In this document: positions 25,973 through 26,298 of the stretch, one piece after another | Layout: every line of letters begins with the position of its first letter | How positions within the stretch are numbered: the first letter of the stretch is position 1 | NCBI GenBank assembly: GCA_903863935.1 | Contig: CAIPDV010000022.1 | Location: forward strand, 1 to 50,002 | Source of the DNA: an uncultured Bacteroidota bacterium | GTDB lineage: Bacteria; Bacteroidota; Bacteroidia; JABEUT01 | DNA length: 50,002 bases | Reading direction: 5' to 3' | Notes under the pieces: generated by a model | Databases searched by the model: none | Told to the model about the DNA's origin: nothing | Seen by the model: the letters and a program-made list of their open reading frames with translations, nothing else | Program-made: the position numbers and the translations under genes

Positions 25973-26045
25973 AAAACAGGCAAAAAGCTATAAGGGGCTG
26001 TTTGAATTTTCAGTTCGAAGTAACCCATATATACGGCACTGTTTT
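25973..26045 (-). ncRNA. Y-RNA-like unit 3, minimal form without tRNA head
   Basis: A 73-base unit. Ends AAAACAG/CTGTTTT pair; signature GCCGTA-N9-TACTTCG at 26016-26037; upper helix TATA.GGG against CCC..TATA. The apex is a short AT-rich loop (GAACTGAAAATTC) with no T-arm or acceptor, so this is the plain Ro-binding stem alone. Confidence 0.7.
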
Positions 26046-26049
26046 CACT

Positions 26050-26147
26050 AAAAGAGCGACATTTAACAGGAGATTTAATGGAGGATTCGAACCTCCTGCC
26101 CTAAGGCATCTGCCATCGAAGTATCTCCTGTTTACGGCATCTTTTTT
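26050..26147 (-). ncRNA. Y-RNA-like unit 2, head with T-arm
   Basis: Ends AAAAGA/TCTTTT pair; signature GCCGTA-N9-TACTTCG at 26117-26138; the nine-pair helix ACAGGAGAT/ATCTCCTGT is perfect. The head holds a small hairpin TGCC-TTAG-GGCA and a perfect T-arm GGAGG-TTCGAAT-CCTCC, but no acceptor or D-arm. Confidence 0.78.
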
Positions 26148-26166
26148 CCGAAGGAATGACCTTCGG
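26148..26166. other. seven-pair hairpin between RNA units 1 and 2
   Basis: CCGAAGG-TCATT-CCTTCGG on the minus strand. It is followed by A, not T, on that strand, so it is not a terminator; a processing site or RNA-stability hairpin is possible. Confidence 0.6.
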
Positions 26167-26194
26167 CTAGTATTGTTCCGGAAGCGATATTCGA

Positions 26195-26298
26195 TTCAGG
26201 AGCGGGGAACCGCAATGAGGATTTGCACCTCTTCCGGGCACCAACCCGGACCCTCTCCCCTTCTGTGCGAAGTATCCTGCCTCTACGGCATTCCTGAA
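26195..26298 (-). ncRNA. Y-RNA-like unit 1, head with T-arm-like hairpin
   Basis: Ends TTCAGGA/TCCTGAA pair; signature GCCGTA-N9-TACTTCG at 26268-26289. The head has hairpin TCCGGG-TTGGTG-CCCGGA and a T-arm-like GAGG-TGCAAAT-CCTC. The upper helix is less regular than in the other units, so this is the most diverged member. It starts 87 bases after the rsr stop. Confidence 0.68.

Follow-up and report, generated by a model that had tools for sequence, protein, structure and literature searches.

Introduction

In the literature compared here, bacterial Y RNAs are described as one or two per genome, with heads that mimic transfer RNA (tRNA). YrlA (Rfam RF02553; Salmonella YrlA, PDB 6CU1) is encoded beside Ro60/Rsr and carries, on a long basal stem, a T-arm, a closed acceptor and a D-arm in circularly permuted tRNA order; it is modified by tRNA enzymes (PMC8394870). 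A Y RNA serves as the tether between Ro60 and PNPase in Deinococcus radiodurans (PMC7790460), and in this Rsr-Y RNA-PNPase particle (RYPER) the stem holds Ro60 and the head holds the partner (PMC8394870, PMC8058203). The Salmonella rsr-yrlBA-rtcBA operon unites a relative of Ro60, at least two Y RNAs and RtcB at one locus (PMC7790460), and Ro60-Y RNA particles are reported from a member of the Bacteroidota, Bacteroides thetaiotaomicron, with no head classes described in the part of that report consulted (PMC11277228). The subject of the present work is an array of six Y RNA units (U1 to U6) on a stretch of 50,002 nucleotides (nt), hereafter the window, from an uncultured Bacteroidota bacterium (contig CAIPDV010000022.1 of assembly GCA_903863935.1), and in particular its three short units, U1, U2 and U3.

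All six units have a two-part stem in common and differ in their heads. The short units are almost certainly conserved classes, and we consider it rather probable that all three belong to a fixed kit of diverse Y RNAs, the heads of which tether Ro60 to different partners. The comparison with YrlA showed the same position beside Ro60 and, in U6, a similar head; however, the stem consensus of the Bacteroidota units is not the same, U4 and U5 possess the arms but have the tRNA opened in the D-loop and not in the anticodon arm, and U1 to U3 are devoid of acceptor and D-arm. Unlike the D. radiodurans particle, described for one tethering Y RNA, and the Salmonella operon, the arrays described here contain several head classes and up to eleven units; the locus in the window has a WYL regulator instead of RtcR, and extra tRNA genes. 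Relative to Rfam and to the literature compared, from which the main bacterial Y RNA papers are absent, such a multi-head kit would be new. A search of Rfam at a relaxed threshold gave no meaningful family and no YrlA match for U1 to U3, the gathering score of the YrlA model (69 bits) was reached by none of U4, U5 and U6 (Table 1), and no unit in the loci of ten relatives attained it.

The array and its common stem

The array lies on the minus strand between the genes of Ro60 and RtcB and begins about 85 nt after Ro60, so that the encoding together with a Ro60/TROVE protein, which is characteristic of Y RNAs, is found here as well. The stem motif GNCGTA-N8/9-TACTTCG occurs exactly six times in the 3.76-Mb genome, and all six occurrences are in the array. 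In every unit an outer helix and a bulged U are followed by the pairing GC/GC, by CGUA, which represents one side of an internal loop in the common stem, by an inner helix of roughly 8-9 base pairs, by UACUUCG and lastly by the head. The basal stem formed from both ends, which is another mark of a Y RNA, consists of two helices with compensatory change and the near-invariant GNCGUA/UACUUCG motif, which we infer to be the Ro60 site.

In 79 named loci of Ro60 relatives, 231 exact motifs lay downstream on the Ro60 strand. No copy was upstream, and a single one lay antisense within Ro60. This bias of strand and position indicates that the array is not a product of chance.

Structures of the short units

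U3 is exactly 73 nt long, and the sequence-only reading, in which it consisted of the stem alone, agrees with both its length and its fold. The outer stem of seven base pairs (AAAACAG/CUGUUUU) is followed by two pairs past the bulge and by the inner stem UAUA.GGG/CCC..UAUA, which is closed by a short loop without a T-arm. This loop contains CUGAAAA (26007-26013), identical to the anticodon loop of the tRNA-Phe of this genome. A common stem closed by a loop of less than 25 nt is the defining feature of class III, to which U3 belongs.

A short hairpin plus a T-arm had been proposed for both U1 and U2. The assignment holds for U2, the head of which includes a 5' UGG element, the hairpin UGCC-UUAG-GGCA and the canonical T-arm GGAGG-UUCGAAU-CCUCC (26080-26096), that is, the class II combination of 5' UGG, hairpin and T-arm without D-arm. 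The head of U1 is, instead, a three-way junction closed by GGGGA/UCCCC, in which the hairpin UCCGGG-UUGGUG-CCCGGA (26233-26250) stands beside a T-arm-like hairpin, GAGG-UGCAAAU-CCUC (26217-26231), with G replacing U55. It has the class I arrangement, a GGGG..CCCC three-way junction with GGUGCAAAUCC or a UUCGA-type hairpin; GGUGCAAAUCC is almost invariant in class I of the relatives of the window. The 3' end of U1 was set from the class I alignment. When the stems were refitted with 263 foreign 5' arms, an equally good stem was obtained with 7 for U1, 2 for U2 and 15 for U3, and hence the stem of U2 stands out and those of U1 and U3 do so less.

Independent models and covariation

Covariance models of class I (R1), class III (R2) and class II (R3) were built from relatives only, the window being excluded. 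Each model scored its own window unit best, with 69.0 to 103.6 bits (Table 1), the cross-scores among the three units being 28 to 39 bits (U1 with R3, 38.6; U2 with R2, 39.4; U3 with R1, 38.1). A scan of 395 genomes of the class gave matches to R1 in 12 and to R2 in 13, all of them among the 18 genomes with Ro60 and none among the 377 without it (Fisher p 7e-19 for R1 and 1e-20 for R2).

With the structures held fixed, 94% of the cells were paired in class III, against 67% after shuffling, and double changes occurred in 130 cells, against 36. In class II the paired cells amounted to 91% and the double-change cells to 100 (29 shuffled), in class I to 94% and 79 (23 shuffled). The shuffles ignore the relatedness of the sequences, which is retained when the pairing partner is slid by one to three columns, and such slides abolished the signal in all three classes. 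The stem and head structures are under selection. The scores with the own-class models, the restriction of the genome matches to Ro60 genomes and the compensatory changes together indicate that the short units are maintained.

Classes in the Ro60 arrays of Bacteroidota

The search for units around Bacteroidota Ro60 loci, in which one mismatch was allowed, gave 427 units in 87 arrays. Class I was present in 57 of the 87 (single-copy in 56), class II in 54 (single-copy in 51) and class III in 57 (single-copy in 45). The short units, which as decaying fragments might have been expected to be missing in relatives, are therefore kept as classes in dozens of arrays. By name, classes I to III span four orders, Chitinophagales, Cytophagales, Sphingobacteriales and Flavobacteriales, and in the Ro60 tree each of them is found on both sides of deep splits.

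A recurrent order of the classes is also seen, the shuffle results serving as a guide and not as a p-value. The triple I-II-III occurs in 12 arrays (order shuffles: mean 1.3, maximum 6), class I stands directly before class II in 24 of 38 cases (mean 7.8, maximum 19), and the adjacency II to III was found 13 times, the reverse never. Arrays with the triple include those of Sporocytophaga (loci L010, L011), Chitinophagaceae (L014), Sediminibacterium (L023), Chryseolinea (L027), Pedobacter (L030) and a Flammeovirgaceae genome (L078).

Further heads were encountered in these arrays. One further type of Y RNA, in Chryseobacterium arrays, has a head of some 165 nt, of which a stretch of 33 nt is 97% identical to the 23S rRNA of the same genome (e.g., L040:10531-10715; also in L022, L028, L032, L034, L035, L038, L039, L041, L055, L074 and L077). 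A same-genome search confirmed the matched target as large-subunit rRNA, and an Rfam search of the head gave no match. Class VII of Chryseobacterium (e.g., L041:9010, L053:9604, L070:10344) has a conserved head around CCUGAAUAACAGUAAGG that is not tRNA-like, and another recurrent head, with GCTAGAG and TATAAG, lies outside the named classes (L016:7831, L022:8182). The L022 record is named Limnohabitans, a betaproteobacterium, and its Ro60 locus groups with Flavobacterium; it is probably a mis-binned contig.

The tRNA-headed units

The full permuted tRNA heads proposed for U4 to U6 are indeed tRNA-like and permuted, but they comprise two distinct permutations. U6 alone has the YrlA layout, with T-arm, closed acceptor and D-arm and with the Y stem standing where the anticodon arm would be. 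After rotation of class IVa heads, 88 of 139 were called tRNA by ARAGORN, none being called unrotated or shuffled; in these heads the two ends of a tRNA are joined. The fold of U4 and U5 is a cloverleaf of four arms, its D-loop interrupted by the Y stem, with a D stem GAGC/GCUC and an anticodon arm capped by a GCAA loop, and the acceptor of U4 is loop-closed. In class V one of nine rotated heads was called tRNA by ARAGORN unedited, and U4 and U5 were called after hand trimming. Class V, with its D-loop-opened cloverleaf and short non-standard anticodon-arm loops, was also seen in L004, L006, L009, L018, L049, L089, L091 and L099.

Anticodon-loop likeness was assessed with exact 7-mers from the anticodon loops of the tRNAs of this genome, in the first 16 nt after UACUUCG of distinct heads. 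Such a 7-mer was present in 21 of 54 class III loops (shuffled mean 2.4, reversed 4) and in 18 of 102 class IVa junctions (shuffled mean 2.8, reversed 4). The other classes showed no comparable enrichment, class I having 5 of 55 at scattered positions.

Origin of the short units

One suggestion drawn from the size series in the window, from bare stem to tRNA head, had been that a tRNA module was progressively acquired or lost. U1 to U3 are shorter and lack the D-arm; that they are decaying remains of full tRNA-headed Y RNAs is nevertheless extremely improbable. The junctions of class III do resemble the start of the class IV head (ACTTTTAAT), but dozens of arrays retain the short units, for the most part as single copies and in order, and the class-specific conserved heads of these units, their strong compensatory change and their best scores with the models of their own classes are not those of debris. 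A stepwise gain or loss in this lineage is hardly more credible, albeit not quite so remote. Each short unit belongs to a class of its own with a conserved head; all classes coexist in four orders, so that any such event would be older than those orders; class I is no intermediate, having its own junction and conserved sequence; and the model scores point to a grouping of the short units by class, apart from the longer units encoded in that genome. In the distant past class III may have arisen from class IV through a deletion, or class IV from class III. The patchiness of the module, absent from 10 congeners, could also be accommodated if the repeats were recombination or attachment sites in DNA and not RNAs, but the strict placement on one strand, the compensatory pairing of RNA type and the tRNA-like heads make the probability of this negligible.

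Several points weigh against the kit. Promoter-like sites upstream of the units are inconsistently placed, the motif TAnnTTTG showing a weak excess only, at -30 to -21, and for U1 and U3 alone the fold energies are not distinctly more favourable than those of shuffled sequences (z about -1). The class labels come from rules with about 45 hand corrections, several arrays are without one or more of classes I, II and III, and the arrays compared in the order test include related, non-independent ones. Class II is also heterogeneous: in Chryseobacterium the T-arm stands ahead of the hairpin, and this form may represent a separate class.

Proposed role of the heads

Division of labour among the RNAs is the best reading of the array, as a kit of mostly single-copy, class-specific heads fits it; that the heads serve different partners, the half of it that we infer, is somewhat more probable than not. 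Ro60 would bind the common stem and each head would lend the particle a different surface. Class III would offer almost none beyond its anticodon-like loop, class II could form a tRNA elbow from the UGG/GG element and the T-arm, class I would present a three-way junction of its own that bears a T-loop-like hairpin, class IV an elbow with acceptor, and class V a near-complete cloverleaf without anticodon. A single Ro60 could in this manner be linked to various enzymes, the known candidates for which are PNPase and tRNA-handling enzymes, or be occluded without a partner.

A rival proposal concerns U3, which retains the full common stem and has no conserved head fold: it might fill the stem site of Ro60, block other RNAs or partners and set the number of free Ro60. 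This gate is conceivable but unlikely, as the class III loop is non-random and class-typical and may itself matter. The same loop could make class III, together with part of class IV, a bait for anticodon nucleases, with RtcB nearby to mend the cleaved tRNAs. The 7-mer enrichment in classes III and IVa is consistent with this, and a nuclease-inhibitor role has been suggested for YrlA (PMC7790460); more than half of the class III loops are, however, without such a 7-mer, the loop is not presented on an anticodon stem of five base pairs, Salmonella YrlA was left uncut by the nuclease, and the match may merely reflect descent from tRNA, all of which renders a decoy or sensor improbable.

A broader form of the tethering kit may be put forward tentatively, in which the array would equip one Ro60 with the separated pieces of a set of RNA mimics. 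The anticodon loop would be represented by class III, the elbow by class II, elbow and acceptor by class IV and the anticodon-less cloverleaf by class V, with class I an unassigned junction and with the Chryseobacterium head adding a piece that copies 23S rRNA. Each might dock on, or act as decoy for, a different RNA-handling enzyme, and Ro60 would then act as a hub with many adapters in an RNA repair island, to which RtcB and spare tRNAs also belong.

If the kit exists as proposed, its single-copy types, including a bare stem, would make the function of Y RNA heads, a long-standing question, accessible to test. The natural head swaps on one stem offer ready-made comparisons, and among the genera that have the ordered kit are some with representatives in culture (Pedobacter, Flavobacterium, Chryseolinea and Sporocytophaga).

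Neighbouring genes and related loci

The positions of the units and of their neighbours are collected in Table 1.

Table 1. Features of the Y RNA array and adjoining genes, in window positions
Feature	Position	Strand	Evidence and remarks
U1, class I Y RNA	26175..26301	-	model R1 without window, 103.6 bits, E 4.9e-21 at 26172-26301; RNAalifold and pair counts
U2, class II Y RNA	26054..26147	-	model R3 without window, 76.4 bits, E 8.3e-17 at 26044-26150; fold; covariation
U3, class III Y RNA	25973..26045	-	model R2 without window, 69.0 bits, E 1.4e-16 at 25968-26049; covariation; loop match
U4, class V Y RNA	25826..25961	-	fold; ARAGORN tRNA call on rotated head, 4-base anticodon; weak YrlA match, 22.9 bits
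U5, class V Y RNA, sister of U4	25677..25811	-	fold; ARAGORN tRNA call on rotated head; weak YrlA match, 26.1 bits
U6, class IVa (YrlA-type) Y RNA	25538..25666	-	Rfam RF02553, 45.8 bits, E 8.3e-9, end to end, below gathering score; rotated head called tRNA
Six stem-motif sites	26289-26268, 26138-26117, 26037-26016, 25950-25929, 25800-25779, 25658-25637	-	motif search, whole genome
Ro60/Rsr (TROVE + vWA)	26386..27903	-	immediately upstream of array; Pfam TROVE 1.7e-31; vWA_Ro60 2.2e-4, under its cut-off
RtcB RNA ligase	23933..25333	-	downstream of array; Pfam RtcB 4.9e-79
WYL/WCX regulator	28080..29192	+	divergent from Ro60; Pfam WYL 5.1e-12
Extra tRNA-Phe (GAA)	25454..25528	-	between array and RtcB; ARAGORN; Rfam tRNA 55.3 bits
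tRNA-Tyr-like element	25363..25446	-	anticodon loop CUGUAAA, odd D-arm; Rfam tRNA-Sec model 39.1 bits, under threshold

The extra tRNA-Phe diverges in sequence from the other tRNA-Phe of the genome, and a standard tRNA-Tyr is present elsewhere in addition to the tRNA-Tyr-like element. The occurrence of RtcB and spare tRNAs in one module suggests that it probably serves the repair or turnover of damaged RNA. Searches of 10 congeners, several of them with incomplete genomes, found neither Ro60 nor RtcB, and the module (23933-27903) accordingly looks mobile or often lost. A WYL gene divergent from Ro60 was found in 35 of the 80 loci of relatives.

The Ro60 loci L004, L006, L007, L023, L028 and L049 have clusters of 7-18 tRNA genes no more than a few kb away, and so do the phage loci L183, L188 and L193. 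In one genome the array (at 213240) and Ro60 (at 186733) are about 25 kb apart on one contig (G087:C4). Viral contigs (L176-L186) encode Ro60 relatives of 42-58% identity that are adjoined by stem-motif RNAs, and one of them carries a bare-stem-like RNA (L178:5536-5611) scoring 56 bits.
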